Shown here piece by piece: positions 973-64,000 of a stretch of 64,000 bases of DNA. Every line of letters begins with the position of its first letter. Within the stretch, counting starts at the first letter, position 1. A program made the translations under genes and the position numbers. This DNA is from an uncultured Bacteroidales bacterium. GTDB lineage: Bacteria; Bacteroidota; Bacteroidia; Bacteroidales; Paludibacteraceae. The notes below the pieces were generated by a model. The model searched no databases and was not told where the DNA came from. It saw only the letters and a list, made by a program, of their open reading frames with translations. The stretch spans positions 1 through 64,000 of the forward strand of contig ONJT01000009.1 of NCBI GenBank assembly GCA_900318245.1, given 5' to 3'.

Positions 973-1521
973 ATGAAAAAAGTATTATGGTTGATGGTAT
1001 GCGCGGGGATGATGATGGTATGCGTTGTAATGATGGTGTCTTGCGGCGCGGCGAAACTAAGTCCCGAAGAGCGTGCTGCGCGGAAAGCGGCTATCGAGCA
1101 GAACGCGCAAAAAGCGATCGCGGATCAGAACTTCCGCATCAACCTGACGATGGTCCGTCCTCTGTTTGGTCAGAACCTGACGGTTTCCGGTTACTGGATC
1201 AAAGTGGACACGACGCATGTACAATGCTACTTGCCTAAGATCTATCCGGACTATAACCCGCATTTTGATGCGCCTGCGCCAGGAGAAAAATACAATGACA
1301 TGCGTCTGGAGTTCACATCACCGATAGACGAATATCTATACACCTTCAATCCGGAGACCAATGTCGGGCTCATTACGTTTAAGACACTGTATGGCGGCGA
1401 CGAGTACCGTTTCTATATCCAGATCGAGAACGTCGATGAGGCACGTGTGCGTATCCTTCCCGGTGACCGGAACGAGGTGTCCTGCGAGGGAACGATTACG
1501 CCTATCGGCGAGAGGTGGTAA
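973..1521 (+). CDS. DUF4251-like lipoprotein, 182 aa
   Basis: A lipoprotein signal peptide (MKKVLWLMVCAGMMMVC then VVMMVSCG) places the mature N-terminal Cys at a lipobox, so the protein should be membrane-anchored outside the cytoplasm. A short Ala/Arg-rich helix follows, then an all-beta domain with the layout of the Bacteroidota DUF4251 family (a 'SGYWIKVD' strand and a late 'RVRILPGDRNEVSCEG' strand). The function of that family is unknown. I chose the ATG at 973 because it gives the signal peptide directly and is preceded by AGGAAGG. An upstream in-frame start at 931 would add 14 residues before the signal peptide. No good promoter was seen in the 70-base gap, so it may be co-transcribed with the gene at 553. 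Confidence 0.75.
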   Translation: MKKVLWLMVCAGMMMVCVVMMVSCGAAKLSPEERAARKAAIEQNAQKAIADQNFRINLTMVRPLFGQNLTVSGYWIKVDTTHVQCYLPKIYPDYNPHFDAPAPGEKYNDMRLEFTSPIDEYLYTFNPETNVGLITFKTLYGGDEYRFYIQIENVDEARVRILPGDRNEVSCEGTITPIGERW

Positions 1522-5858: not shown

Positions 5859-6886
5859 TGGAAGAAGATTGGAACATAGAATCGGAAGAAGTCTTTGAGC
5901 GTTGGCGTTGCGAGGTGGATAAAGGTCAAGGCAAAGAACGCATTGACAAATACCTCGCGGAGCACATGACCAACACCAGCCGCAACCGCATCCAGACGGC
6001 TGCGGATGCCGGCAATGTGTGGGTGAACGGGAAGGCCGTAGCGTCCAATTACCGTATCAAACCCGGCGATGTCATTCAGGTGCTGCTCGACCATGAACCT
6101 CATGACTTCACCATCACGCCGGAGAATATCCCGCTCGATATCGTGTATGAAGACGAGGACCTGTTGGTTGTCAACAAACCCGCCGGGCTCGTCGTTCATC
6201 CCGGGCATGGCAACTACGAGCACACGCTTCTTCACGCCCTGGCATGGCACTTCGGCGAGGAACTGGATATCAACGATCCGTCCATTGGATTGGTGCATCG
6301 TATTGACAAAGACACCTCGGGCCTGTTGCTGATTGCCAAGACTCCGGAAGCAAAGGCGCACCTCGCCAAGCAGTTCTTTGATCATACGACGGAGCGCACC
6401 TATAACGCCCTCGTCTGGGGTACGTTCAAAGAGCAGAGCGGCACGATAGAAGGCGCTCTCGCGCGTGACAACCGCGACCGCACGATATACAAGGTATGGG
6501 ATCCGGAGGAATGTCCGCAAGCCAAAGAGGCTATCACGCACTGGCGCGTACTCGAGCAATTCCCGTATGTCACGCTCGTCGAGTGCCGCCTCGAGACCGG
6601 TCGTACGCACCAGATACGCGTGCATATGAAGCATATCGGCCATCCGCTCTTCTGCGATGAGAAATACGGCGGGTGCGAGATACTCAAAGGGCTGCGCACG
6701 CAGAAATACCGCCAATATATAGAGAATTGTTTCGCCCTCTGTCCGCGTCAGGTGCTGCACGCGCGTACGCTGGGATTCACCCATCCGCGTACCGGAGAAC
6801 GGATGTTCTTCGACAGCCAGTGGCCGGAAGACATGACGAATGTAATTAATAAATGGAGACATTATGAGCCAAATACTCTGGGTTGA
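5858..6886 (+). CDS. RluD-family 23S rRNA pseudouridine synthase
   Basis: A 342-residue RluA/RluD-type enzyme that isomerises uridines in large-subunit rRNA. An S4 RNA-binding domain covers about residues 26-90, followed by the catalytic domain with HRIDKDTSG (catalytic Asp150) and the late RTHQIRVH motif. The N-terminal extension of about 20 acidic residues is common in this phylum. Its ATG overlaps the stop of the PASTA gene, and the porX start lies 23 bases before its end. This suggests translational coupling of ribosome modification, cell-wall and secretion-regulation genes. Confidence 0.92.
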   Translation: MEEDWNIESEEVFERWRCEVDKGQGKERIDKYLAEHMTNTSRNRIQTAADAGNVWVNGKAVASNYRIKPGDVIQVLLDHEPHDFTITPENIPLDIVYEDEDLLVVNKPAGLVVHPGHGNYEHTLLHALAWHFGEELDINDPSIGLVHRIDKDTSGLLLIAKTPEAKAHLAKQFFDHTTERTYNALVWGTFKEQSGTIEGALARDNRDRTIYKVWDPEECPQAKEAITHWRVLEQFPYVTLVECRLETGRTHQIRVHMKHIGHPLFCDEKYGGCEILKGLRTQKYRQYIENCFALCPRQVLHARTLGFTHPRTGERMFFDSQWPEDMTNVINKWRHYEPNTLG

Positions 6887-50586: not shown

Positions 50587-53500
50587 ATGATGAAAAAGAG
50601 TGTAAGATTGTTGATGATGTTATTCGCTGTGATAGCGAGTACGATGTCTGTGTATGCTACCAATTACTGGAAAATCAGAGTAGTGGCAGTGAATCCGGAA
50701 GGAGGAAGCGGGCAAGTGTTTACATGCACATGGAGCGAGAAGTATTCCGTAACAAAGACATGGAGCGCGGACTATACTTGTGGCGTGAAGTCCAGTAGCG
50801 GAAATCCCGATTTCATGTTGTATGCGCAATGCGGTACAGATGTGGAGTTTATGGGATGGTTTAAGGATGAGGCATGTACGCAATCCCTTAACTCGTCGGC
50901 GGAATATAACTGTTATGGCACCAGTGCTACTTTTGTCAGCATGTCCACTTCGGAAGCGGATGCACCTACTACCCCGGTGTATGCTAAATTCGGCAAGGTT
51001 GCCGTTGATTGGTCCACACTGGCCGAGGCTCCGACAACGGGTAATTATTACCTCCTTGGTGTCGGTTATAACGGATTAGCAGGTCTTTACGAATATTCGG
51101 ATGGAAAGGTCGTGTGTGGTACTAAAGATCCTAATTTTGCAGTTCTCTATACCCTTACTTTCTCCTCAGCTACCAATTTTACCATCAGTTGTGTGGATGA
51201 AGGAGAAACGAAATATGTAAACATGAATGGTACGTATATCAAACCGGAAGCATCTCCTGAAAAGACATTAGAAGCCAAGGGAGATGGTACCTACATGGTG
51301 AACCTCAATAATGGTCATAGTAGTGGCTATACATGGTGGGAGATGCAGACAAGCTCTTATTCGGCAGGTAGAGCAACTAACTCGACCAAAAACGAGTCGG
51401 CGCCCAGTCAACGCTGGATGTTTGTTCCTGAGACAGCGTATAAAAACTTAGTATCGGTCGAATCGTTAAAAGAAACGGGTTCAATTACGATAGATGCAAC
51501 TCCAACGTCTTCGGGCACGACCAATGTAAAATTCAACGTGTCGGATATTGGTCCTGTTTCTGCTTTCGATTGCACCCTTTCCGGCGGAGATGGTAATTTT
51601 GAGTTGGGGACCCCGACTAGGAGCGGTAATGTCATTACTGTGCCGGTAACTTATGCGGCTCAGAATGTACATTCCGGCACCTCGACTCCGAAATCGACAG
51701 CAACAGTAACGCTGACGGCAAAGAACGAAGCGGCAAGTTCTGCTTCCGGTCTTGTGCCTGCGTACGTTAACTTATCGCCGCAATTTGCGCTCAATGTGGA
51801 CGAATTGGATTGGAGTTATGACGGCGATGATTTAGTGGAAACCTATTACGCAGGTATGGAGGTGGCAGCTTCCCAGCGTGCGCGTTTACAGAATAAGTTG
51901 ATCTATGATCCTGCGCAGACGACTGGCGTGGCGGCTAATTTTGCTACATGGACGGCTACTATCATCGGAGATAATGCTGACCAGTTCAAGTTTGCCAATG
52001 GTACACAAACTGTAAGCGGACCCTATACACCGGACTTGCTGGATGTGATCTTTGCTCCGACGAAAACCAGCGAAGCATCCGTCGCTACTTTGCATATTGT
52101 AACAAGTTATATGGACGCAATGAATGTTACGTATAACTGCACACGGGACATTGCTTTGTATGGTAAGAGTCTGGACGTTTCCTATATTCAATTTGCGGCG
52201 AATGGAAATGAAACAGCATCTGATAATGAAAGTTATAGTTACGGTGACATTATCGGAACCAACACACAGACGGTTACTGCTGAGTTGGGTATCCACGGGG
52301 TCTCTAATCTGACGAAAGTATGGAGTGATCCAGATGGCGTATTTGAGTTCGATGTCAATTCGATTGATTTCAGTAAAGACCATCAGGTGTTGACATTCAA
52401 TGCACATCGTCCGACACCTGTTACAACCGCGACTAATCACACGGCAACGCTGACCATTTCCGGTATCGGTTCTGAGGGACCGATTTCTGCCGTGCTGACG
52501 CTTACCTATCAGGCAATGCCGTTGTTGACACCGGAAGTAACGTGGAAATGGGAACATATCACAGAAAATACAGCAATCAGCAACCCGTTGACCACTACTT
52601 CAGATGGCGCATGGACACTGACTAAACTGACGGGTGATATGGTGACCTACAATGCGGAAGCCAAAACGGGTACGGTGGCATATATGCACCATGAGCCGGC
52701 TACGGCAACCTTCGCTTTCTCAATACTGCAGACGGATACCTATGCGGCAATGAGTGAGACCTATACGGCTACCGTCTCGCCGTATCCGGAAGAAATTCAC
52801 CTTACCACTTCGGCGCAATTCAATGATCCGAACTTTATGAGTCATACGTCATGGGAAACCTTTGATGAGTCCAAACATGAGATGTATGTTGATTACTCTG
52901 ATAATGTAGATTTCTTCTTGAATGGACATTCTATGATGTCTTTCAGTTATCACGATAAAGGCACAACCACATGGACGATCACTGAATTCTTTAGCGACAA
53001 TAGTTCCAATGTTGCATATAATAGTCGCACTTTCACGGAAGGTTATAACGAATTCTCTTTCAATCCCACAGCTGTCAAACTCCGTATACGCGGATCGGGT
53101 AGTGGCGCTTATTTCACGGATGTGCGGTTCTTTGATACCGATACCATTACGGCGGATTATGATAAGGTGGTACTTATCAACGATAATGGTACGATCTATG
53201 ATTTGGATGTAACGGCTACGTTCTCCAATACGTATTCTGCTACGGTAGCCCTCAATGCGGCGGCTCAGCCCTATTTTGAACTGCAAACAGCGGGCAAAGC
53301 ATCCGGAGCATCGATCGTGTTTGATAACAACGACCTTGGCTTAGGGCAAGTTAAAGATAAAGTTATTACCATCACGCTCAAAGAGGGTGCAGATGCCGCT
53401 GCGGCTGCGGCTGCTACGGCAGGCGATGCGTGTCAGGTGACATTCGGCGATAATTATACCTATAATCACCACGAGTTCTCGCTTCCTATCACCTTGGTCG

Positions 53501-56500
53501 AGGCGTATGATGTACGATTCAAGAAGCATGACCACGGTAGTTATACGGTGACGTACGAAGATGATACAGAGCATCCGCATTCCATTACATCCGAGGACTT
53601 TGTAAAACACCTGACTTCGATTGCTCCGGAGCATACGACGGTGACCGTCAGTGCACCGATGCCGGCAGAAGGATATGCATTCCAGGGATGGAAGATTAAT
53701 GATCAGCTTGTTTCTTGCAAATCATCTATCACGAAGGTGTTGGATGAGGCTGCCACGGTGGAACCTATTTTTGGCGTCGCAGAAGGTACATTCAAGATTG
53801 ATGCAGCATACTTTGATGATCTATCCGAAGCACTCAGTGTGGCTGGAAGTCTTGCAGAGCAGGAACCGGTAGTAACATTGATGAAGGATATCGCATTGAC
53901 TGAACCGGCTACTTATACGATTCCCATGGGTGTGACGCTGCTGATTCCTCACAAAGCATCTTTCTCTGAATTGCAAACACAACCGGATATGGTGATAGCA
54001 ACAGCAGAAACACTATACGCTTATCGCACGTTGACATTAAGAGAAGGAGTGAACTTTATCTGTAATGGTAATATCTGTGTTGCCGGTAAGATTATGGCAG
54101 CCGGTGGTGGTAACAAATCCGCTTATGTTACGGGCGGTTGTGGTGTTATCAATATGGCGCAAGGTGGACATATCGAGGTCAATGACGGAGGAAACCTCTA
54201 TTGCTGGGGATTCATCAAAGGTCAGGATATGGACCAAGGTAATAACACCCAAGGTACAGGTACGGTAACGGCCAATAACGGCGCTAAGATTTGGGAAAAC
54301 TTCTACTTAGGCGACTGGCGAGGCGGTACTGCTACATCCAATATCTACTTTGAAAGGGAAGAGAAGATGCTATTCCCGTTCCAGAGTTATTCGATTCAGA
54401 ACATAGAGATACCTACTACATATAAGTATGGTTCAAAGCTTATGAGTACGATGGCAGTACATACGGGTTACGGAGATCCTATGTTTACTGTGGCTACCAT
54501 AGGAAGTGACCAAGCTCTGTTCCTACTTCAGGATGAGGAGTCCATCGTTCGTAAATGGTATGATCCGACAACCGATTTGAGCTGTTTTGAGTTAAACGGA
54601 ACCGCTCTATTGGGTAGTTTAATACTCAATTTGCCGTTTGTGGGCGATTTCGATTCCGGAGATTGCAATCTGCCGATTTCGAATAGTATGCACGTCATGA
54701 TTGCGAACTGCAATATGACCTTGGCTAAGCCGCTTACGGTACAAGCGGGTGCTGTGTTGGAAATCAAGAATACGGCTACGGTTGATTTGATTGCACCGAT
54801 TCACATGTTTGATGTGGATGAGTGGGGACTGTATATCCATAACTACTATTTCCGTTCGTTCAATATTTTGACTAGCCATAAGGATCGTGGAGCGGAGAAT
54901 TCGAAAGCAGGGTTGGATGATGCAAAAGTGATTATAGATGGTACGCTGAATGTAAAGAGCGGCCAGGGTGCTATATATGCTACAACGGGAGGTGCCAACC
55001 TGATGGGTAATGGCGGAGGTGTCATCAACTTCGAAGGTGCATTACCTACTGATAATGGTCCGCTATGGCAGGTGAATGTATTGTCCGGTTCGCCATACAT
55101 TACTTGGGTGGAGAATCCGGAAAATGCGGCTAATCTGCATAATGAGGATGACTCGTATACACGCAGCATAGGATACGCAAAGTTCTATAATATCAACGGT
55201 CGCTGGTATCACGAAGAAGATAAAGACGAGCTGGAGGATCATACCTATTGGTTTACCTATATGGACAATGGCAATACCGGTGAGGACGTAGGAACAAATG
55301 CCGTATATTCGCACGACAAGACCGGTCTGGACGCTCGTGAAAAATGGTATAACGTAGATGCAGATGAGAACTGTGCGGATTGGTGGATCGGTCAAGCGGA
55401 TGGTAACCACTACAACTACACCTATCTCAATGCATGGCATCAGTTCATAGCTACGGAAACGCCGAATGTCTATAGCGGATCGAATAACAAACTGTATGCT
55501 CAAGACGAGTGCTCCTGGAGCGAGATGGGCGAAGTGGATGAGAACTGTCTCTATACCTTCGTCGAAAACGAGCAGGAAGTGAAGAAAGCGCTTGTCAATG
55601 GTCATTTCATTCCGCTGGAGAGCAACGGTTACGACCCGGCTTACCACTATACGGAGGATGCTTCGCAGTATTATATCTGCTTCAAGGGCTGTAACTGGCA
55701 TGCCGCTACGCCGTATGTAGGCGAGAGCAAGGCTTATACCATCCATCCGGAAGATAAAGATCTGTATTATATCTGGTTTAATAACGATTGGTTGAACGTT
55801 GAGCGCGAAGAACCGTTCTTCTATACAGCCGATGAAGTAACCAATGTGAAGACCTATTATGAATATGTGAATGGTGAATGGGAGGTTGCTACACCGTTTG
55901 TGCGTGTAGAAGATGCATTGGAGACCCGTGAGTTCTACATGATTAAGGAGGCATTCAATGTGGCTTCTATCAAGAAGAATGCGACCATCACTATTCTGCG
56001 CGATATTCCGAATGTGACCGAGTCTCTGGTTTACACCACTCAGAATACTACTTGTACACTTGATTTGAACGGACATATAGTTACCGGCTCATGTAATTAT
56101 CTACTTGATATCAATGCGCCGGGGTCTACTTTCACCATCACGGACAATAGTACCTACAAAAATGGGGAGTTGAGGGCATGCCCATCAGGTGATGCCAGAA
56201 GGTATGGTTATAAACTAACTGCCGGCACATTGAAACTTGTAGCAGGAAAGATGTATTCCACCAATACTACTGAACGTAAGAATGTGGATGGTGTTAAGAA
56301 TGTCCGTATTACAGGAATGACAGTGGCTAATGGCGCTACATTTACGATGGAAGGCGGCGACTTTGAGTGTATTGATGAATACAATAACTATGGTATTGAA
56401 GTTGCAACAGGCGGTGTCGTTAATATGAAGGGCGGCCGTGTTTATGTCCGTAGTACGGTGTGGTATTCGACATACGGTATCTATCTGAACCGTGGTACGT

Positions 56501-59500
56501 TGAACATGTCCGGCGGTACGGTAGAATGTTCTGCTGCGGGAAATGATGCCGTTTATGGTGTGTATGTCAATGCTGCGGCTTCGTATAACTCCAGTAAAGG
56601 AACAACTAGTAAGAATCACGGCACATTGAATCTTTCAGGAGGCTCAATTATTGCTGAATCTCAGAAAAATGCATACGGAGTATATGTGAATCGCGCAGTA
56701 GCGGTTAAGAGTTCTACAGACAGAACTTTCATGGCAGAAGATTTAGGCGTTGTCAATATGACAGAAGGTTCAATTACTGCTAATGCAACAAATGGCGTAA
56801 ATGCAAGAGGTATATATTCATTTGGCACAGTTACTGTTTCTGGTGGTACAATTACAGCTAATGTACAGAAATCTACTCAGAATAAGGCTTACGGATTGGT
56901 ATTATGCCACGGGAATATCACTATCGGCGGGACAGCAAGCATAACAGCTAATGCACCGACTCTAGCATACGGAGTGTGGGCAACAGCTGATGTTAACACT
57001 ACGTATGGTTATCTGCATCAAAGTAATGTCACAATCAACGGAGGAACTATCAATGCAAATGCAACCAATACTACGACTGCTTATGCAGTGTATGTAAATG
57101 GTAATGCCAAGAAACTTACGTCTGGTAATTTCCAAGGTGACTATGCATATGCAGGTACAGTAACGATTAATAATGGTATATTGAATGCCAACGCCAAAAC
57201 GACTACAGCCGCCGGTGTATATGTGGTAGGAACGAAGACTTCTGGAACAGTTTCAGCCTCTCCGACATGTACCATCAATGGTGGTAAGTTCAAAATGACG
57301 GGTACTGAAACGCTGAATGGAGTAAAAGGTGAAACACTAACAAAAGCTGCAAACTTCAAAATAAACGGCGGTTACTTTAGTCATAGTGGTAACCTGGCTA
57401 CTTATGCAGCCGCTCCGAAGAAGGTAATCACGCTGCCAAAGACCGATGCCAATTATCCGACCTATAAATACGAGGTGGCAGAAGGTTATACAATTACCTT
57501 CATGGACGGCGAGACGCAATTGCAGTCTAACAACCAGAAAGCCGGAACGCAGGCTATCTACAGCGCTACCGAGCCGACAAAGGCGAATACGGAGACCAAT
57601 TCCTATATCTTTGACGGATGGGCAACCGAAGCGGATGGACCTATGGTATATGCCAAAGGGGCTCTTCCCAATGTCACTGCTGAGGCTACCTACTATGCGC
57701 ATTTCACTGAAACAACATTGAAATGGAAAGTAACCTTCAATGCTAATGGTGGTATTTGTACTACGGATTATAAATATGTGGATAAAGTGGATGGGGGAAA
57801 AGCAATCGGAACCCTGCCTACTGCCACCAGAACAGGATATAATCTCAAAGGATGGTTCACAGCAAAATCCAAGGGAACACAGATTACAACAAAAACCAAA
57901 ATAACCGCAGACGTGACATACTATGCCCAGTGGACTGCCATCAAGCATAATCTTACTTGGGATATAAACGGCGGTATTGTCACCACTGCCGGTCAGCTTG
58001 GTTCCAAGACGGTATGGCCGGAAGTAGGGGCTACAGGTGTCCAGACGTATAATTTAAGTTACGCTGCGGCAATTAAGGCTCCTGTTGTTGAGCGTACCGG
58101 TTATACCTTTATTAACTGGGGTGTACCGACGGTAGCAGCAACAATGCCGCTGGAGGATTTGACTTACACCGCTCAATGGTCGCCGAACACTAATACGGCG
58201 TATGTAGTTAAGCATTTCAAGCAAAATCTGAATGGTACCTATCCGGAGGAACCGGCGGAGATAGACGAACTGACAGGTACTTCTGATACATACGTCACAC
58301 CGGCTACCAAGTCGTATGTTGGTTATGTCACTCCGTCCACCCAGATGGTTCAGATTGCTGCGGACGGTAGTCTCGTGGTTGAGTATCTCTACGATCTCAT
58401 CGGCTATACCATTACCTTTGATGTGAACGGCGGTACGTGCGGTACAGCATCTGCGGATGTGAAACATGGTGCAACACTGAACCTGCCGGAAGCAACGCGT
58501 GAGGGAGTAGGGAACATAAGCTATGAGTTCGCCGGATGGTTCACGAAGGCAGTCGGAGGTGACCAGATAACCGCATCGACGATAATCCAGCGTAACATCG
58601 GTACGCTCTATGCGCACTGGACGGAGGTAGAAGAGGCGATGCCGGATATTGTGGCTGAAAATGGTGATAACATCACGATAGACGACGATTATATCGCCAC
58701 GCAAGGCACGAATGAGGTAACGAATATCGTCATCGAAAATGGCGGTAAAGTGACGGTAACTGCCAATATCGAGGTAGATAACTTGTACTTGGAAGGCGCA
58801 GACGCTACTTCCGGTCAGTTAATCGCTGCCGCAGGTAAAGTAACGGCAACTAACGCTTACTACGATTATGCGTTCAACGAGACAGTACGTCACTGGCGTG
58901 CGTTCGGTGTGCCTTGGATGGTGAATCTGGATGCTGTGCCTGTGAAGGAAGTGAAAAACCAGGCAGGTGATCCTGTGAATCGCACGCTCGTGCTCGGGCG
59001 CGATTACGATATTATATATTATAATGGTGCGAAACGTGCATCGCAAGGTCCGGGCAGCTCATGCTGGGAGTGGGTAAAAGAAGGTTCGCATATTCTCCAA
59101 CCGGGTAAATGCTATATGATCGCCTTCAACTCGAATGTCGGAACGCTGCGTTTTGCGAAGTCGTACGGCTCGCCGGTAGTCTTCACCGGAGCGATGAACG
59201 TGGCTGCGAATACGGCAGCTGATGCAGCCAACAGCGGTATCAATGCGATTGCCAACCCGATGACGTATCATACTACGATGAATGCCGGTCCTACGACTGC
59301 ACAGGTACACAACGGTGGCCTCATCGGAGAAGATGACTATATGCTCTATAATATTGAGGATAAGAAGTTTGTGGTCGGCAAAGCAGTCTATGTGCAGGTA
59401 GATGCGGCTCAACCTGTAGTGATCAATGCGGCCGGAAGCGAGGGCGTTATTACTCCTGTTGCCGCTCCGAAACGCAATGCACAACGTGCCACGGAGAAAC

Positions 59501-60060
59501 GTTATCTCTCGCTTAATGACTATTATCATGTAGCTATTCAGGGTGTGAACGAGACCCGCGCAGGCCACTTGTATGTATTGCCGGAAGAGAACAAAGCGGA
59601 CGAGTATGTCATTGGTCACGACTTGGTGAAGATGGGTATGAGCGCTTCGGCTTCTCAGATTTGGATAAAGCGTTACGGTGTAAACCTCTGTATGCACACC
59701 GCAGAACCGACAGATGGCGTGATAGAGTTCCCGGTTAACATCTACGCACCCGCTGCCGGAGAATATACAATCACCAATGTACAATCACCAATCACCAATG
59801 AAGATTATACCATATATCTGACTCGTGATGGAGAGGCGATATGGAACCTGAGTAATAGTGCTTATACGCTGACTCTCAATAAGGGAACAGTAAGCAACTA
59901 CGGTTTGCGCATCAGCGCCAAGAGTCCACAGACGGCTACCGGTATTGACGAAGCCGTTGTGGATGCGAAGGGCGAGACGCGTAAGGTGATAATCAACGAT
60001 CAGGTTTATATCATCCGCGGCGAGAATGTATATTCTGTTGACGGACAATTGGTAAAATAA
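50587..60060 (+). CDS. giant secreted beta-helix/InlB-repeat protein, 3,157 aa
   Basis: The signal peptide MMKKSVRLLMMLFAVIASTMSVYA is followed by a long modular surface region. Residues about 1-760 form an N-terminal section shared with the incomplete paralogue at 61789. Further Ig-like or beta-sandwich stretches follow. Around 1840-2240 lies a right-handed beta-helix with repeats such as GTLNMSGGTVE and NVTINGGTINANA, whose strands recur every 25-45 residues. Around 2290-2680 there are InlB B-repeat-type modules (TGYNLKGWFTAKSKGTQIT, YEFAGWFTKAVGGDQIT). A C-terminal domain ends in a short tail KVIINDQVYIIRGENVYSVD that resembles sorting tails of Bacteroidales cell-surface proteins. Export by type IX secretion is plausible given PorX, but not proven. 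It likely binds glycans or host/microbial surfaces. Confidence 0.9.
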   Translation: MMKKSVRLLMMLFAVIASTMSVYATNYWKIRVVAVNPEGGSGQVFTCTWSEKYSVTKTWSADYTCGVKSSSGNPDFMLYAQCGTDVEFMGWFKDEACTQSLNSSAEYNCYGTSATFVSMSTSEADAPTTPVYAKFGKVAVDWSTLAEAPTTGNYYLLGVGYNGLAGLYEYSDGKVVCGTKDPNFAVLYTLTFSSATNFTISCVDEGETKYVNMNGTYIKPEASPEKTLEAKGDGTYMVNLNNGHSSGYTWWEMQTSSYSAGRATNSTKNESAPSQRWMFVPETAYKNLVSVESLKETGSITIDATPTSSGTTNVKFNVSDIGPVSAFDCTLSGGDGNFELGTPTRSGNVITVPVTYAAQNVHSGTSTPKSTATVTLTAKNEAASSASGLVPAYVNLSPQFALNVDELDWSYDGDDLVETYYAGMEVAASQRARLQNKLIYDPAQTTGVAANFATWTATIIGDNADQFKFANGTQTVSGPYTPDLLDVIFAPTKTSEASVATLHIVTSYMDAMNVTYNCTRDIALYGKSLDVSYIQFAANGNETASDNESYSYGDIIGTNTQTVTAELGIHGVSNLTKVWSDPDGVFEFDVNSIDFSKDHQVLTFNAHRPTPVTTATNHTATLTISGIGSEGPISAVLTLTYQAMPLLTPEVTWKWEHITENTAISNPLTTTSDGAWTLTKLTGDMVTYNAEAKTGTVAYMHHEPATATFAFSILQTDTYAAMSETYTATVSPYPEEIHLTTSAQFNDPNFMSHTSWETFDESKHEMYVDYSDNVDFFLNGHSMMSFSYHDKGTTTWTITEFFSDNSSNVAYNSRTFTEGYNEFSFNPTAVKLRIRGSGSGAYFTDVRFFDTDTITADYDKVVLINDNGTIYDLDVTATFSNTYSATVALNAAAQPYFELQTAGKASGASIVFDNNDLGLGQVKDKVITITLKEGADAAAAAAATAGDACQVTFGDNYTYNHHEFSLPITLVEAYDVRFKKHDHGSYTVTYEDDTEHPHSITSEDFVKHLTSIAPEHTTVTVSAPMPAEGYAFQGWKINDQLVSCKSSITKVLDEAATVEPIFGVAEGTFKIDAAYFDDLSEALSVAGSLAEQEPVVTLMKDIALTEPATYTIPMGVTLLIPHKASFSELQTQPDMVIATAETLYAYRTLTLREGVNFICNGNICVAGKIMAAGGGNKSAYVTGGCGVINMAQGGHIEVNDGGNLYCWGFIKGQDMDQGNNTQGTGTVTANNGAKIWENFYLGDWRGGTATSNIYFEREEKMLFPFQSYSIQNIEIPTTYKYGSKLMSTMAVHTGYGDPMFTVATIGSDQALFLLQDEESIVRKWYDPTTDLSCFELNGTALLGSLILNLPFVGDFDSGDCNLPISNSMHVMIANCNMTLAKPLTVQAGAVLEIKNTATVDLIAPIHMFDVDEWGLYIHNYYFRSFNILTSHKDRGAENSKAGLDDAKVIIDGTLNVKSGQGAIYATTGGANLMGNGGGVINFEGALPTDNGPLWQVNVLSGSPYITWVENPENAANLHNEDDSYTRSIGYAKFYNINGRWYHEEDKDELEDHTYWFTYMDNGNTGEDVGTNAVYSHDKTGLDAREKWYNVDADENCADWWIGQADGNHYNYTYLNAWHQFIATETPNVYSGSNNKLYAQDECSWSEMGEVDENCLYTFVENEQEVKKALVNGHFIPLESNGYDPAYHYTEDASQYYICFKGCNWHAATPYVGESKAYTIHPEDKDLYYIWFNNDWLNVEREEPFFYTADEVTNVKTYYEYVNGEWEVATPFVRVEDALETREFYMIKEAFNVASIKKNATITILRDIPNVTESLVYTTQNTTCTLDLNGHIVTGSCNYLLDINAPGSTFTITDNSTYKNGELRACPSGDARRYGYKLTAGTLKLVAGKMYSTNTTERKNVDGVKNVRITGMTVANGATFTMEGGDFECIDEYNNYGIEVATGGVVNMKGGRVYVRSTVWYSTYGIYLNRGTLNMSGGTVECSAAGNDAVYGVYVNAAASYNSSKGTTSKNHGTLNLSGGSIIAESQKNAYGVYVNRAVAVKSSTDRTFMAEDLGVVNMTEGSITANATNGVNARGIYSFGTVTVSGGTITANVQKSTQNKAYGLVLCHGNITIGGTASITANAPTLAYGVWATADVNTTYGYLHQSNVTINGGTINANATNTTTAYAVYVNGNAKKLTSGNFQGDYAYAGTVTINNGILNANAKTTTAAGVYVVGTKTSGTVSASPTCTINGGKFKMTGTETLNGVKGETLTKAANFKINGGYFSHSGNLATYAAAPKKVITLPKTDANYPTYKYEVAEGYTITFMDGETQLQSNNQKAGTQAIYSATEPTKANTETNSYIFDGWATEADGPMVYAKGALPNVTAEATYYAHFTETTLKWKVTFNANGGICTTDYKYVDKVDGGKAIGTLPTATRTGYNLKGWFTAKSKGTQITTKTKITADVTYYAQWTAIKHNLTWDINGGIVTTAGQLGSKTVWPEVGATGVQTYNLSYAAAIKAPVVERTGYTFINWGVPTVAATMPLEDLTYTAQWSPNTNTAYVVKHFKQNLNGTYPEEPAEIDELTGTSDTYVTPATKSYVGYVTPSTQMVQIAADGSLVVEYLYDLIGYTITFDVNGGTCGTASADVKHGATLNLPEATREGVGNISYEFAGWFTKAVGGDQITASTIIQRNIGTLYAHWTEVEEAMPDIVAENGDNITIDDDYIATQGTNEVTNIVIENGGKVTVTANIEVDNLYLEGADATSGQLIAAAGKVTATNAYYDYAFNETVRHWRAFGVPWMVNLDAVPVKEVKNQAGDPVNRTLVLGRDYDIIYYNGAKRASQGPGSSCWEWVKEGSHILQPGKCYMIAFNSNVGTLRFAKSYGSPVVFTGAMNVAANTAADAANSGINAIANPMTYHTTMNAGPTTAQVHNGGLIGEDDYMLYNIEDKKFVVGKAVYVQVDAAQPVVINAAGSEGVITPVAAPKRNAQRATEKRYLSLNDYYHVAIQGVNETRAGHLYVLPEENKADEYVIGHDLVKMGMSASASQIWIKRYGVNLCMHTAEPTDGVIEFPVNIYAPAAGEYTITNVQSPITNEDYTIYLTRDGEAIWNLSNSAYTLTLNKGTVSNYGLRISAKSPQTATGIDEAVVDAKGETRKVIINDQVYIIRGENVYSVDGQLVK
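59767..59800 (+). repeat. ACAATCACCAAT short repeat near the giant gene's 3' end
   Basis: ACAATCACCAATGT, ACAATCACCA and ATCACCAATG units are read ITNVQSPITNED at a domain border. It is another in-frame short tandem tract. Confidence 0.6.
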
Positions 60061-60094
60061 ATGCATGGTAAATGATAAAATGGTAAATCGCTTT

Positions 60095-60247
60095 ATGGAA
60101 AAGAAACAATATATCAGTCCTTATGTGGAAACAATGCGTGTAGGAGCATACATGATGTACGGTCCTGCAAGTGTGCCGGTGGATCCGTTCAAAACTCCGG
60201 CTCTCCGAGCGCCGGAATTGCCCAACGACTCTGTCCCTGTATTTTAA
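60095..60247 (+). CDS. small peptide gene 1 (MEKKxYISP family), 50 aa
   Basis: A short peptide starting MEKKQYISPYVETMRVG, with YMMYGPASVPVDPF in the middle and a Pro-rich end finishing in VPVF. It lies 34 bases after the giant gene's stop and is followed by a terminator. It is clearly related to the peptide gene at 60572 (MEKK-YISP, MY-GPAS, DP, terminal V-F). Short proteins beginning M-K-K-x-Y-I-x-P are frequent in Bacteroidales and have no known role. A longer start at 60065 (MVNDKMVNRF) is possible, but that part is a short tandem repeat. Confidence 0.75.
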   Translation: MEKKQYISPYVETMRVGAYMMYGPASVPVDPFKTPALRAPELPNDSVPVF

Positions 60248-60273
60248 TCTCGCAGAGTTTACAACTGTCAAAA

Positions 60274-60307
60274 ATCTCATGTGCCGCGTGCATGTGAGAT
60301 TTTTTTT
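60274..60307 (+). terminator. terminator after small peptide gene 1
   Basis: ATCTCATGTGC and GCATGTGAGAT form an 11-bp stem (two G-T pairs) around loop CGCGT, followed by seven or more T. The terminator at 60739 has the same stem. Confidence 0.88.
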
Positions 60308-60422
60308 GTACTCATCCTACGTATACCTATGATATCCCGTACTCGTTGAGGACGCGGACGTAGTGCTTCACGTCCTCGGAATAACGGCCTAACTCATTCC
60401 ATGCGCGGCGGAACTGGTCGCG

Positions 60423-60527
60423 GTTGTGGACGCGAAGGGCGAGACGCGTAAGGTGATTATTAACGACCAAGTATTCATCATCCGATGCGAGAATGTATAT
60501 AGTGTGGACGGCCAACTCGTTAAGTAA
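60423..60527 (+). pseudogene. remnant of the 3' end of another giant surface-protein gene
   Basis: The last 34 codons before TAA 60525 translate to a close copy of the C-terminal tail of the giant protein (RKVIINDQVFIIRCENVYSV against RKVIINDQVYIIRGENVYSV, then DGQLVK in both). Upstream the likeness stops abruptly at about 60420 and the frame meets a stop at 60390, so nothing else of the gene is left. On the other strand, 60327-60420 reads as a possible C-terminal fragment of an unrelated gene (DQFRRAWNELGRYSEDVK), which suggests a deletion junction at about 60420. Confidence 0.85.
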
Positions 60528-60529
60528 AG

Positions 60530-60562
60530 AATGAAAGATTGAAAGAATTAATGAGTGAAAGG
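60530..60562 (+). repeat. AATGAAAGA-type short repeat before small peptide gene 2
   Basis: AATGAAAGATTGAAAGAATT and AATGAGTGAAAGG units. It is similar in kind and position to the TGGTAAATGA repeat (60065-60090) before small peptide gene 1. Confidence 0.5.
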
Positions 60563-60571
60563 AATACGATT

Positions 60572-60712
60572 ATGGAAAAGAAAATATATATAAGCCCTGA
60601 AACGAGCGTAGAGAACTACAACTCTGTGTTGATGTACATTAGTGGTCCGGCAAGTGCGGCACCAGATCCCCACGCAAGCGGAGCTCCCCGCCGCGAAACA
60701 GAGGTCTTCTAA
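60572..60712 (+). CDS. small peptide gene 2 (MEKKxYISP family), 46 aa
   Basis: The peptide begins MEKKIYISPETSVENYNS, has VLMYISGPASAAPDPH in the middle and ends PRRETEVF. It is a paralogue of the peptide at 60095. It stands 44 bases after a remnant tail of a giant gene, so the order 'giant protein C-terminus, then small peptide, then terminator' is repeated. ATG 60572 is preferred; an in-frame ATG at 60551 would add MSERNTI. It is too short for usual gene calling. Confidence 0.78.
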   Translation: MEKKIYISPETSVENYNSVLMYISGPASAAPDPHASGAPRRETEVF

Positions 60713-60738
60713 AAGCCCTCGTTGGCAGTAACGAAAAA

Positions 60739-60771
60739 ATCTCATGTGCCTTGTGCATGTGAGATTTTTTT
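60739..60771 (+). terminator. terminator after small peptide gene 2
   Basis: ATCTCATGTGC and GCATGTGAGAT around loop CTTGT, followed by TTTTTTT. The stem is identical to that at 60274-60300, only the loop differs. Confidence 0.88.
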
Positions 60772-60781
60772 GTCCCAACTC

Positions 60782-60812
60782 TTGCATATATTAAAAAAAT
60801 GTAGTACTTTTG
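60782..60812 (+). promoter_or_regulatory. promoter before the truncated AAA/DUF4143 gene
   Basis: TTG at 60782-60784, a 20-base spacer and TACTTTTG at 60805-60812. ACTCTTGCATATAT is shared with the promoter of the BRO gene (46473-46486). Confidence 0.8.
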
Positions 60813-60842
60813 CACTGTGAAAAGTGCTTGAGTGGTAAAAAC

Positions 60843-61568
60843 ATGCACTTTGTAGAGTGCAAATTGTATCAAATCGATGTGCCGGTTTACAGTCTGGAGG
60901 ATATACTATCCGGCAAAGCGCAACCCAAAGCAGTTCCTCATCCCTTACCGCTATTCCGGCAGTACTTGCGTGAAGGATATTATCCTTTTGCGTTAGAATG
61001 TGATTTTCAGAAACGCATGCAAAATGTAATACGCCAAACGATGGAGTCGGATATTCCGCATTATGCCAAGATGAGTCCGGCTACAGGACGCAAACTGCGC
61101 CAAATGTTATCCATCGTTGCGCAAAATGCGCCCTACAAACCCGAAGCTCAATCGCTGGCGAACGAACTGCATATTAGCCGTAATGATGTGCCCAATTATC
61201 TGCTGTTTATGGAGAAAGCGGAGATGTTATGCCAGTTGCGTGACGATACAGGTGGGATGAGAGGACTCGGGAAAGTAGAGAAAGTGTATCTCAACAATAC
61301 GAATATCCAGTATGCTTTAGTAGGCGAGAAAGCAGAGATCGGTAATGTACGGGAAACCTTCTTCTATAACCAACTGCACGTGACGCATGATATCATTTCG
61401 TCTCGTATCAGCGATTTCTGCGTTGGCGACTACACGTTTGAGGTGGGAGGTAAAAAAAAGGGCAAGAAACAAATATCCGAAGTGACGAACGGTTTTGTAG
61501 TACGTGACGAGATTGAATATGCAACGAATCAGATTATCCCTCTATGGGCATTCGGATTGATGTATTAA
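60843..61568 (+). pseudogene. N-terminally truncated AAA-ATPase (DUF4143 family)
   Basis: The 241 residues correspond to the C-terminal part of the AAA_14/DUF4143 ATPases common in this phylum (GYYPFALECDFQKRMQNVIRQ, SLANELHISRNDVPNYLLFME, GLGKVEKVYLNNTNIQYALVG and the final EVGGKKKG...IPLWAFGLMY). The N-terminal ATPase domain with Walker A and B motifs, about 150 residues, is missing. Reading upstream gives only the promoter at 60782-60812, so a deletion has joined a promoter to the remnant. It is listed as a pseudogene, though the open frame is undamaged and a product may still be made from ATG 60843. Confidence 0.8.
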
Positions 61569-61626
61569 ATTTCGTTACTTTGTGCTAGTTTATCGGATAA
61601 TTGAGCAACAAGTCATATTCAAAAAG

Positions 61627-61658
61627 CCGCATGTACGTGAGAGCGTATGTGCGGTGTT
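61627..61658 (+). terminator. hairpin after the AAA/DUF4143 remnant
   Basis: CCGCATGTACG and CGTATGTGCGG pair around loop TGAGAG, followed by only a weak T-run. ACGTGAG-AG-CGTATGTGC recalls ACGTGAGCGTATGTGC in the leader of the first giant gene (50521-50536), so it could also be a regulatory element. Confidence 0.5.
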
Positions 61659-61715
61659 TGTTAGGATAAAGTAGTAAAAATTATTATTTTTTTTTACTCT
61701 TTTGTTAAGAAAAGG

Positions 61716-61746
61716 TTGCGTATATGAAAAAAACATACTAATTTTG
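61716..61746 (+). promoter_or_regulatory. promoter of the second giant surface-protein gene
   Basis: TTG at 61716-61718, a 20-base spacer and TAATTTTG at 61739-61746. TTTGTTAAGAAAA directly upstream is shared with the first giant gene's promoter. Confidence 0.8.
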
Positions 61747-61788
61747 CAGCCGAATTTTGTATGCCACAACCATAAAAATCAAAATTAT

Positions 61789-64000
61789 ATGAAAAAACAA
61801 ATTTTAAAGTCAGGATTTTTCCTGAAGTGTTTAATGGTGCTCCTCGCCATCGGTTGGAGCACAAATGCCGTGAAGGCAGACATGTATTATTATCAGCTGC
61901 GCGTGAAAGCAATTTGCGACGGACTTCCGGCTGATAGTTGGGTATCGGTAAACGGCGGCTCTTCTGTTCCAACTCCCTCATCGAATGATTATATGATGGC
62001 GGTGAGTAGTTTTTCTAGCACCCCGGATTTTAAATTTAAGTCAACGGCACAAGGAGGAGAGACAATTGTTGGCTGGTATTTAGATTCCTGTTGTACGCAA
62101 TTGCTTAAAACGGGTCCAAACCCGACCATATATTCTTCATCTGCGGGTGTAATAGATCGTTATGCTACAGAAGCTGAGGTTGTACCTCAGACAATCTATG
62201 CAAAGTTTACGAAGGGAGAAAATGTAAACTGGACGACAGTGGGAAAAAGTTTCTTACCCGACATACCCAGCGCCGGTAAGTATTACATACGCCATTTGCA
62301 AACAAGTAATTTTCTATATTATGATAGTTCCGATCAAAAACTAAAAGCCAACGCAGTAGATATAAATGATGCATTGCTGTTTACGCTAACCAGAGGAGAA
62401 GGAGGCGCAGCTACAATTAGTGCTGTTATAGGTAATGAGACTAAGTATCTTAACCAAGACGGATCAGGCCTAACAGCATCGCCAGTGACGCATACTATTG
62501 AGTATAATAGTACAAAAAGAAAAGAAAGCTACAGAGTTCACTTAGCTAAAGATGATGAAGGCGGTCCTTGGTATTGGCATGCGCCTAATAACTCTGAAGC
62601 CAATACCAATATTACCACTTGCGCTACAGGTAATAATGGTCTCGGAACGCAATGCTGGTTTTTTATTCCAGAAAGTGAAGTCCTTAATCGCACCAGCGTA
62701 TATGCGAAAAAATCGGATGGTTCCGTAACGATTTCTGAGTCTCCGACTGCACAGGGTACAGCCTATGTGAGATTTAGGGTGTCCACAGTGGGTAATGCAT
62801 CACGATATTTTACCTATTCGTTATCCAATGAAACGAATTGGGTAATGGGTACACCTACCCGCTGCGACAATATTATCACGGTACCGGTAACATATACTGC
62901 ACAGAATATTCATTCCGGAAGCGAAACGCCTGCTTCTACCACAACGGTAACATTGACCGCAAAGAATGATGCCGCAACTACCGCTTCCGCTACGGCAACT
63001 GCATATGTGGATTTGCAACCGGACTTCGAGATGGCGGCAAGTACAGTAGATTGGAGTACAAAACAAGTTGGTGAGGAAATCTATAATGTTGGAATGGAAG
63101 TGGCTGCTTCCCAACGTGAGCGTTTGCAAAATAAATTGGTATATAGTAGCGCCAATTTATTTGCTCAAAATGCCACATGGACAGCCACTATTACGAATGA
63201 CGCAGCCGGCAATTTCAAGTTTGCCAACGGAACGCAATCTGTTAGTGGACCGTATTCCGCAGAATTGTTAGATGTGATCTATGCACCGAAAGCAGAAGGA
63301 ACACATACGGCAACCTTGCGTATTGAAGTAAGTTACACGGATGGCAAAACACCGACTCCGCAAACGCTGACATGCGTAAGAGAAGTAGCATTGTCCGGTA
63401 AGGCGCACGATGTGTCTATGTTGACGATGACACTAAATAACAGCGAGACTTCCTTTACGAGCTATACACATGAGTTGGGAAATATTATTGGTACCAATTC
63501 GAAATATGATACAATCGATTTGTATATTCATGGCGTAACGGAACTGTCGAAATCATGGAGTGCATCGGAAGGTGCGTTCGAGTTTGATGTTAATACGATT
63601 GGTTTGTCCAAAACCAATCAGCGCTTAATTATTCGTGCGCATCGTACTACGCCTGTGACATCAGACGAGAATTATACAGCTACACTTACTATATCCGGTA
63701 AGGATGGTAGCAGCAACGATGTTTCTGCGACTTTTACTTTGAACTATACGGCAAAGCCGTTAATTCCGACCACTGTTACGTGGAATTGGGAAGAGCTTGT
63801 AGAAGATGGAACCTACACGAATCCTATTACTACCAATTCGGATGGAGAATGGACTTTGGATCAGCGTGACGGCAACGGCGGTATGACCTATGATGCCGAA
63901 ACAAAATCCATTACGACCGAGTACATGCACCATGAGCCAGGTTATAAGGGTAAGTTTGAGTTGAATATCCCGCAGACAGATTCATATACCGCATATCGGG
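61789..64000 (+). CDS. second giant secreted protein, N-terminal part (cut by the right edge)
   Basis: From ATG 61789 the frame is open to the window end, 737 codons. Signal peptide MKKQILKSGFFLKCLMVLLA... ends near AVKADMYYY. The visible part is a paralogue of residues 1-760 of the protein at 50587, with shared anchors such as VPVTYTAQNIHSG, GMEVAASQRERLQNKL, FKFANGTQSVSGPYS, FDVNTIGLSK and TEYMHHEPG. The first 200 residues, with Cys/Trp-rich patches, diverge more. The rest of the gene, including any beta-helix and sorting tail, is outside the window. Its promoter matches that of the first giant gene. Confidence 0.92.
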   Translation, partial: MKKQILKSGFFLKCLMVLLAIGWSTNAVKADMYYYQLRVKAICDGLPADSWVSVNGGSSVPTPSSNDYMMAVSSFSSTPDFKFKSTAQGGETIVGWYLDSCCTQLLKTGPNPTIYSSSAGVIDRYATEAEVVPQTIYAKFTKGENVNWTTVGKSFLPDIPSAGKYYIRHLQTSNFLYYDSSDQKLKANAVDINDALLFTLTRGEGGAATISAVIGNETKYLNQDGSGLTASPVTHTIEYNSTKRKESYRVHLAKDDEGGPWYWHAPNNSEANTNITTCATGNNGLGTQCWFFIPESEVLNRTSVYAKKSDGSVTISESPTAQGTAYVRFRVSTVGNASRYFTYSLSNETNWVMGTPTRCDNIITVPVTYTAQNIHSGSETPASTTTVTLTAKNDAATTASATATAYVDLQPDFEMAASTVDWSTKQVGEEIYNVGMEVAASQRERLQNKLVYSSANLFAQNATWTATITNDAAGNFKFANGTQSVSGPYSAELLDVIYAPKAEGTHTATLRIEVSYTDGKTPTPQTLTCVREVALSGKAHDVSMLTMTLNNSETSFTSYTHELGNIIGTNSKYDTIDLYIHGVTELSKSWSASEGAFEFDVNTIGLSKTNQRLIIRAHRTTPVTSDENYTATLTISGKDGSSNDVSATFTLNYTAKPLIPTTVTWNWEELVEDGTYTNPITTNSDGEWTLDQRDGNGGMTYDAETKSITTEYMHHEPGYKGKFELNIPQTDSYTAYR

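Follow-up and report, generated by a model that had tools for sequence, protein, structure and literature searches.

Does each giant surface-protein gene of certain Bacteroidales come with a small gene of its own, and, if so, what does the small gene do? This question is raised by a stretch of 64,000 nucleotides (nt), hereafter the window, from an uncultured Bacteroidales bacterium of the family Paludibacteraceae (GenBank assembly GCA_900318245.1, contig ONJT01000009.1, positions 1 to 64,000). The window is part of a 67,020-nt contig (C33) of a genome of 2.26 Mb in 56 contigs. The closest named relatives of this genome are assemblies of Paludibacteraceae or of uncultured Bacteroidales, many of them ruminant-derived. 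An initial annotation of the window had reported, in this order, a giant gene (giant 1), a tiny gene whose product begins MEKKxYISP (peptide 1), the remnant of a giant-gene tail, a second such peptide gene (peptide 2) and the start of a second giant gene (giant 2), and all of them were present at the positions claimed (Table 1). Here we report that the peptide genes follow genes with a particular C-terminal tail in this genome and in its relatives, so that a conserved cargo-peptide unit almost certainly exists. We also weigh what the peptide may do for its cargo.

The tail, with the pattern KVxxNxxxxIxRGxxxYxxxGQxVK, was found on dozens of proteins of the source genome, its shared part covering about 30-40 residues. 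In the same genome, a MEKKxYIxP-like DNA pattern occurred at 3 places, and an MK[KR]xYxxP-like pattern at 6 places versus 1 for the reversed pattern. Two ORFs found with the second pattern, both on contig C32, stand apart in that their peptide-like start is joined to a lipoprotein. A profile search with 10 peptides of this genome (profile A3) then detected 12 peptide places at E ≤ 10, and a wider profile used afterwards added one on contig C9, giving 13. All 13 peptide genes begin 17-50 nt past a stop codon, which closes a tail-bearing gene in every case but that of peptide 2, where it closes the tail remnant. The first profile already contained ten of the 13 peptides, and several of those ten had originally been spotted behind tails; the pairing test in this genome thus lies in the genome-wide profile search having found no peptide elsewhere, not in 13/13 alone. 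The possibility that such peptides lie mostly away from giant surface genes, on which the initial annotation had staked its case, was therefore not borne out. A read-through extension of the giant was ruled out, as the 17-50 nt gaps hold no fixed frame.

The pairing was also seen from the tail side in relatives. Named genomes queried with the giant C terminus yielded 44 tail loci, and a peptide stood behind 43 of the 44 giant-type tails, L124 alone being without one. By regular expression, the peptide open reading frame (ORF) started -4 to +168 nt from the tail stop codon in 42/44 loci, and L113 was added on reading. As controls, the expression matched in 50/880 dinucleotide shuffles, at 6/119 other long-ORF ends and in 4/44 reverse complements. 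Searching the 44 loci in all six frames with a model of 11 source-genome peptides returned 44 hits at E ≤ 1, of which 43 were right behind the tail (the weakest at L103, E 0.098, and L123, E 0.071) and 1 was elsewhere. These controls, together with the purifying selection described below, ruled out chance ORFs. None of 13 peptides off a tail and 43 of 44 tails with a peptide in relatives support the earlier proposal that giant and peptide form a duplicated functional unit. As a side observation, L124 contains at 1116-1293 (+) a weak peptide-family match (E 0.03), upstream of which no tail gene was seen.

Wider searches showed how far the peptide family reaches. Counting the source genome each time, peptide matches occurred in 16 of 150 genomes in a search at the level of the taxonomic family (E ≤ 0.01), in 9 of 247 at order level (E ≤ 0.001), and in only 5 of 394 at phylum level (E ≤ 0.01). 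Among 27 foreign loci fetched from the family-level search, 17 peptides start less than 100 nt from a tail or a sorting-like C terminus (judged by eye) and 1 at 148 nt; an upstream tail is absent in 6 (L057, L064, L066, L074, L077, and L078), L080 lies at a contig edge, and L061 and L065, inside an ORF of about 300 codons, were taken as false. In G259, a genome of another Bacteroidales family, 7/7 fetched of 8 peptides lie 18-46 nt behind a tail of different make, YNLAGQRV...YIVNGKKVIxK, and in G358, of the same family as G259, 1/2 peptides does so. Approached from the tail side, G259 gave 66 tails at E ≤ 0.1, and 12 of the 30 fetched had a peptide (the regular expression gave 14; L186, L189, and L196 were judged false by eye and L205 was added). 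In a domain scan of C-terminal cargo pieces of about 540 residues, 8/11 peptide-linked cargo proteins of G259 were without a Pfam domain at E ≤ 0.001, and 7/9 cargo proteins without a peptide had one, including GH10, GH43, peptidase C10, and BspA-type repeats. A profile comparison of the pre-tail regions of the source genome and G259 showed no relation, and a plasmid collection queried with one G259 peptide returned no match. No description of such a peptide was found in the published literature searched, nor did the consulted part of a small-protein catalogue (PMC11364881) contain anything on the family.

The peptides of the source genome are 42-57 residues long. Their consensus has an MxKKxYxxPxxE[VI] start, a variable middle and an APxR...VF end (R...W.DDE in G259); the invariance of Y and P is partly a selection artefact, because both were in the regular expression, which did not include the E-V or C-terminal columns. 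In alignment A5, conservation was 2.71 bits per column at the N terminus, 1.33 in the middle and 1.98 at the C terminus. The median ratio of nonsynonymous to synonymous substitution rates (dN/dS) was 0.29 (85 usable of 1071 pairs, which are not independent), and the ratio was below 1 in 25/25 closest pairs shown. These values indicate that the peptides are coding, conserved between species, and under purifying selection. A mean hydropathy of at least 2.0 across 11 residues was reached by 2/66 and 0/11 peptides versus 6/6 cargo N termini, whose hydrophobic cores scored 2.27-3.00 on the Kyte-Doolittle scale (hydropathy only). The peptide is therefore without a Sec-like hydrophobic core. Searches against Pfam, NCBIfam, and PHROG assigned it to no family, with single weak hits to L13 and DUF5967 (E 0.04-0.07), and the peptide profile had 0 matches at E ≤ 1 among PDB sequences. 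Without a Sec-like core or a known domain, the peptide lent no support to two of the roles first proposed for it, anchor partner and anti-sigma-like regulator.

A 22-nt sequence was found immediately 5′ of the start codon in several species; in 234 loci all of its exact copies, and in the source genome all 3 copies found when two mismatches were allowed, are directly 5′ of peptide genes. Within 120 nt 3′ of the peptide, a terminator-like hairpin occurs in 24/42 cases. The same-stem terminators that had been noticed behind both window peptides held up, since 0/200 shuffles folded as well as either hairpin and a repeated 37-nt unit at the two terminators is 95% identical. A further hairpin stem, GCATGTACGTGARAGCGTATGTGC (window 61626-61655), has exact copies in several species (L005, L091, L092, L095, L107, and others), mostly 3′ of peptide genes.

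Type IX secretion carries many Bacteroidota surface proteins. The SprA/Sov translocon of this system (T9SS) was detected in the source genome at 2662 bits, and SprA in 8/8 other peptide genomes tested. The short C-terminal tail is possibly an unnamed sorting tail. A model of the last 250 residues of the giant had a strand-rich domain followed by a short C-terminal strand meander, with low confidence (predicted local distance difference test [pLDDT] 60, predicted template modeling score [pTM] 0.37), and a PDB fold search with the giant C terminus gave no match at E ≤ 0.001.

Given these observations, we tentatively favor, with somewhat less than even confidence, a reading that makes the peptide a dedicated partner in the export or maturation of the surface cargo encoded upstream. 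The partner role is suggested by analogy, because T9SS type B cargo has its shuttle encoded directly downstream. Each giant gene and its small gene would form one transcription unit of promoter, giant, peptide, and terminator, a single transcript that the spacing and the hairpins point to. The peptide, itself no Sec substrate, would be translated last from the mRNA of the giant. Its MxKKxYxxPxxE[VI] N terminus would act as a recognition leader docking on an export or maturation factor, and the docking might let the giant be handled, assembled, or finished correctly en route to the surface. Mantel tests on 40 loci bear on this reading: peptide distances correlated with cargo-body distances at r 0.53 (0/5000 permutations) and with tail distances at r 0.36 (0/5000), and tail with body distances at r 0.25 (4/5000), so that the peptide tracks the cargo body more than the tail, though the tail lies between the two, a comparison whose weight is limited by relatedness and by the tail being short and conserved. 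As far as sequence comparison goes, this result favors a matched peptide-cargo pair.

The limits just named for the Mantel comparison count against the partner reading, as do a number of other observations. When the cargo body was cut into blocks of 45 columns, block distances correlated at 0.33-0.48 with those of the peptide and at 0.13-0.23 with those of the tail. Giant 1 and the end of the giant on contig C23 have no TIGR04183 or PF18962 match, and a profile comparison of 25 source-genome tails with 28 canonical type A ends aligned only YxxxGxxV (10 columns). With no TIGR04183 domain in the tail, T9SS is only the inferred export route for the giants. Of 231 TIGR04183 matches in 5 genomes, 30 cargo genes were fetched, and 0/28 with readable ends had a peptide within 400 nt (regular expression), by which a general partner of TIGR04183 cargo was ruled out. 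The tail side of the source genome likewise counts against the reading: of 42 tail loci 30 were fetched and 28 assessed (L020 and L021 were unreadable), and 18/28 tail genes were without a peptide versus 10/28 with one. Taken with the 0/28, this means that tail-dependent export does not in general require the peptide. Moreover, peptide 2 is still open though only a tail remnant precedes it, and an AlphaFold2 model of the peptide had no confident fold (pLDDT 70.7, pTM 0.20). Separately, in genome G366 (L241, cargo gene ending at 6378, minus strand), behind a TIGR04183 cargo gene come first a peptide copy broken by stop codons and then an intact peptide gene.

Some family members also stand in the opposite arrangement, which likewise weighs against the partner reading. 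In L064, L066, L074, L077, and L129 the peptide lies 5′ of a lipoprotein-like ORF, at +1 to +28 nt, and the same order of peptide then lipoprotein occurs in L217, L218, L222, and L226. In the two ORFs on contig C32 the peptide-like start runs into a lipoprotein, and neither ORF lies close behind a tail (Table 1); one is situated just 5′ of a 3491-residue giant and the other just 5′ of a second long ORF. The lipoproteins carry Mfa_like_1 (fimbrillin-like) domains in L066, L218, and L226 and Fib_succ_major in L077; L064, L074, and L129 had matches below the cut-off only, and L217 and L222 had no match. What links these settings would be genes for surface adhesins or fimbriae.

Cargo length bears on which tail genes have a peptide. 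The median was 1786 codons with a peptide versus 680 without (one-sided Mann-Whitney, p = 0.004; n = 9 versus 18, remnant excluded, two frames cut by contig ends). Size is not the rule, because cargo genes of 493 (at C9) and 850 codons have peptides and three tail-bearing giants of the source genome, of 3684 (L016, C13), 3362 (L019, C44), and 3162 codons (L029, C16), have none. Behind these three giants stands an ORF of another type, at -4 nt in L016 (at least 500 codons), -1 nt in L019 (128 residues), and +35 nt in L029 (123 residues). By eye, the N terminus of these ORFs resembles a signal peptide, GPxRAK recurs as a motif, and a hydrophobic segment is preceded by P[LI]G[DE]; the ORFs had no Pfam or NCBIfam match over cut-off.

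A possible but less probable alternative is that the peptide is the precursor of a ribosomally synthesized and posttranslationally modified peptide (RiPP), or a peptide signal. Residues 1 to about 25 would be a leader for a PqqD-type RiPP recognition element (RRE) and the remainder a modified, exported core; the giant would serve this core as receptor or carrier at the surface, and the maturation enzymes would act in trans. Lasso-peptide leaders carry a YxxP motif that is bound by a protein of the PqqD kind. Two distant relatives of the peptide, in G238 and G385, begin to match 65 and 44 nt, respectively, behind a PqqD-type gene (PF05402, 4.7e-17 and 7.3e-14; the top NCBIfam model, lasso_PqqD_Bac, was below its cut-off). 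In both genomes genes for an HprK-related kinase, a signal-peptidase-I-like protein (matches below cut-offs for these two), and an ABC transporter come next; only the Pfam matches of PqqD and ABC were above cut-offs. In G238 the PqqD gene starts 4 nt past a TIGR04183 (T9SS type A) cargo gene. Because these two relatives adjoin PqqD genes and lasso leaders have YxxP, MEKKxYxxP may be a recognition leader; the peptide is most conserved at its N terminus and least in its middle. A discrete PqqD-like protein near transporters marks RRE-dependent RiPPs, whose leader docks as a strand, according to the consulted part of PMC7470986. Against this, both relatives match weakly (E 6.0e-5 and 3.9e-4 per genome, that is, about 0.015 and 0.1 by chance over the 247 genomes searched), and the C-terminal end of the peptide is conserved rather than hypervariable. 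No RRE was found beside giant-linked peptides in the other loci examined (1.11 Mb, overlaps included) or in the window, with a weak two-sequence model and most of the source genome unscanned. Moreover, the Bacteroidales RiPPs in the part of PMC10352776 consulted are GG-leader types with peptidase-containing transporters. A bolder combination, which we regard as rather doubtful, is that the peptides are leader-bearing last cistrons of the giant genes whose KKxYxxP is bound by a PqqD-type protein, and that, after maturation in trans and export, they end up attached to their own giant or displayed together with it; if so, a RiPP-like pathway would be married to type IX secretion.

It is unlikely that the peptide is a regulator which, being made last, signals complete translation of the giant mRNA and feeds back on the giants or on surface genes generally. 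The last-cistron position, the 22-nt leader common to several start codons, and the members immediately 5′ of lipoprotein genes would suit such a role, but no DNA-binding, sigma, or known regulatory domain was found with Pfam or NCBIfam, and a tie to a particular cargo body is not expected of a general regulator. Somewhat less probable still is a hitchhiker, in which tail, peptide, and terminator form a 3′ cassette that spreads by recombination, the peptide having no role in the use of the giant. In most source-genome pairs tails are more similar than bodies, and the intergenic stretch of L007 and L009 is identical (1.00) and their bodies 0.71 alike, which speaks against strict pairing; the paralogues of this genome look as if they had exchanged 3′ pieces, and the window itself contains an orphan cassette at 60420-60771. 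Purifying selection on the peptides, their conservation across species and in a second family whose tail is of another make, and peptide distances that follow the body more than the tail all tell against a mere passenger. An annotation artefact, with the ORFs untranslated, is very improbable: the source-genome ORFs are short and known from sequence alone, but the dN/dS ratios of all closest pairs, the protein start and end conserved across species, and the low regular-expression controls argue against it.

To our knowledge, the escort and finishing of very large T9SS cargo is poorly known. An unnamed conserved peptide tied to one class of giant cargo would thus offer a concrete, deletable gene for the question of cargo escort, under the dedicated-partner reading that we favor. 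Among the rivals, the RiPP-like reading holds the most interest. The PqqD-linked relatives suggest a possible bridge from peptide maturation to protein secretion.

Table 1. Positions of the features discussed (window coordinates unless a locus is named).
Feature	Position	Strand	Description
Giant 1	50587-60060	+	3157 residues, List_Bact_rpt repeats, without TIGR04183 match
Giant 1 C-terminal tail	59938-60057	+	Last 40 residues, end VDGQLVK; 42 source-genome matches at E ≤ 1
22-nt sequence	60073-60094	+	Abuts peptide 1 start codon; recurs 5′ of peptide genes in several species
Peptide 1	60095-60247	+	ATG at 60095, stop included; 50 residues, MEKKQYISP...
Terminator-like hairpin 3′ of peptide 1	60270-60304	+	Folding -16.9 kcal/mol
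Orphan remnant of giant-gene tail	60420-60527	+	35 codons plus stop
Peptide 2	60572-60712	+	ATG at 60572, stop included; 46 residues, MEKKIYISP...
Terminator-like hairpin 3′ of peptide 2	60733-60771	+	Folding -19.2 kcal/mol; same stem as in hairpin 60270-60304
DUF4143-type protein, C-terminal piece	60843-61568	+	Pfam 6.8e-5, 23.1 bits, below cut-off 28.1 (weak)
Hairpin	61626-61655	+	Of the kind that follows peptide genes in other species; here 3′ of DUF4143 piece
Giant 2 start	61789-64000 (window part)	+	Frame open to contig end 67020, 1744 codons
Lipoprotein-like ORFs of contig C32	L213:13913-15010; L213:1776-2870	-	365 and 364 residues; start MKKIY[VT]QPRIE... ahead of lipobox
RiPP-like clusters	L238:1291-10565; L239:1648-7239		PqqD, YxxP peptide, HprK-related kinase, signal-peptidase-like protein, ABC transporter

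Within the window, peptides 1 and 2 are 50% identical, and an alternative in-frame ATG at 60065 would extend peptide 1 to 60 residues. Across 109 nt, the orphan tail and the end of giant 1 agree at 83% of positions. Between terminator 1 and the orphan tail, 60327-60515 on the minus strand resembles by eye a C-terminal fragment of another protein, and this fragment suggests a rearrangement there. The DUF4143 remnant, which was absent from the initial annotation, sits between peptide 2 and giant 2 and is probably unrelated to the giant-peptide unit. Giants 1 and 2 share 51% identity in the aligned part. Contigs C23 and C39 start about 30 residues beyond the break in giant 2, in the same giant region (by eye), and the giant on each terminates in a tail, then a peptide. 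A known RNA element at the locus was ruled out, since an Rfam scan of 59800-62000 gave zero hits at gathering scores.

Each of four known systems resembles the unit in part. With RRE-dependent RiPP precursors of the lasso-type PqqD kind, the peptides share a short ORF, a conserved KKxYxxP N terminus, and two relatives beside PqqD; they differ in that no RRE or maturation enzyme was seen alongside the giant-linked peptides and in their conserved C-terminal end. Bacteroidales fimbrillin-like (Mfa_like_1) loci are similar in that some peptide-family members lie immediately 5′ of such lipoprotein genes, but there the order is reversed, the peptide being 5′ of the surface gene. Sorting-domain kinds of the T9SS are described in the consulted part of PMC10202324. 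The type A sorting domain (TIGR04183/PF18962) is likewise a C-terminal tail on surface proteins of Bacteroidales with SprA and shares YxxxGxxV, whereas the giant tails lack a TIGR04183 or PF18962 match and share only about 30-40 residues. The remaining system is T9SS type B cargo with PorP/SprF. Its partner is a beta-barrel, whereas here it is a peptide of about 45 residues without a Sec-like core and no beta-barrel, behind a tail matching no named sorting domain; because its partner is not a beta-barrel, the peptide is not a member of the SprF-type family. The likeness lies in the gene order: in the part of PMC12618676 consulted, an SprF-type shuttle gene stands directly 3′ of a type B cargo gene for a surface adhesin, and a dedicated-partner gene directly downstream of the surface gene is likewise found here at 13/13 source-genome and 43/44 named loci.

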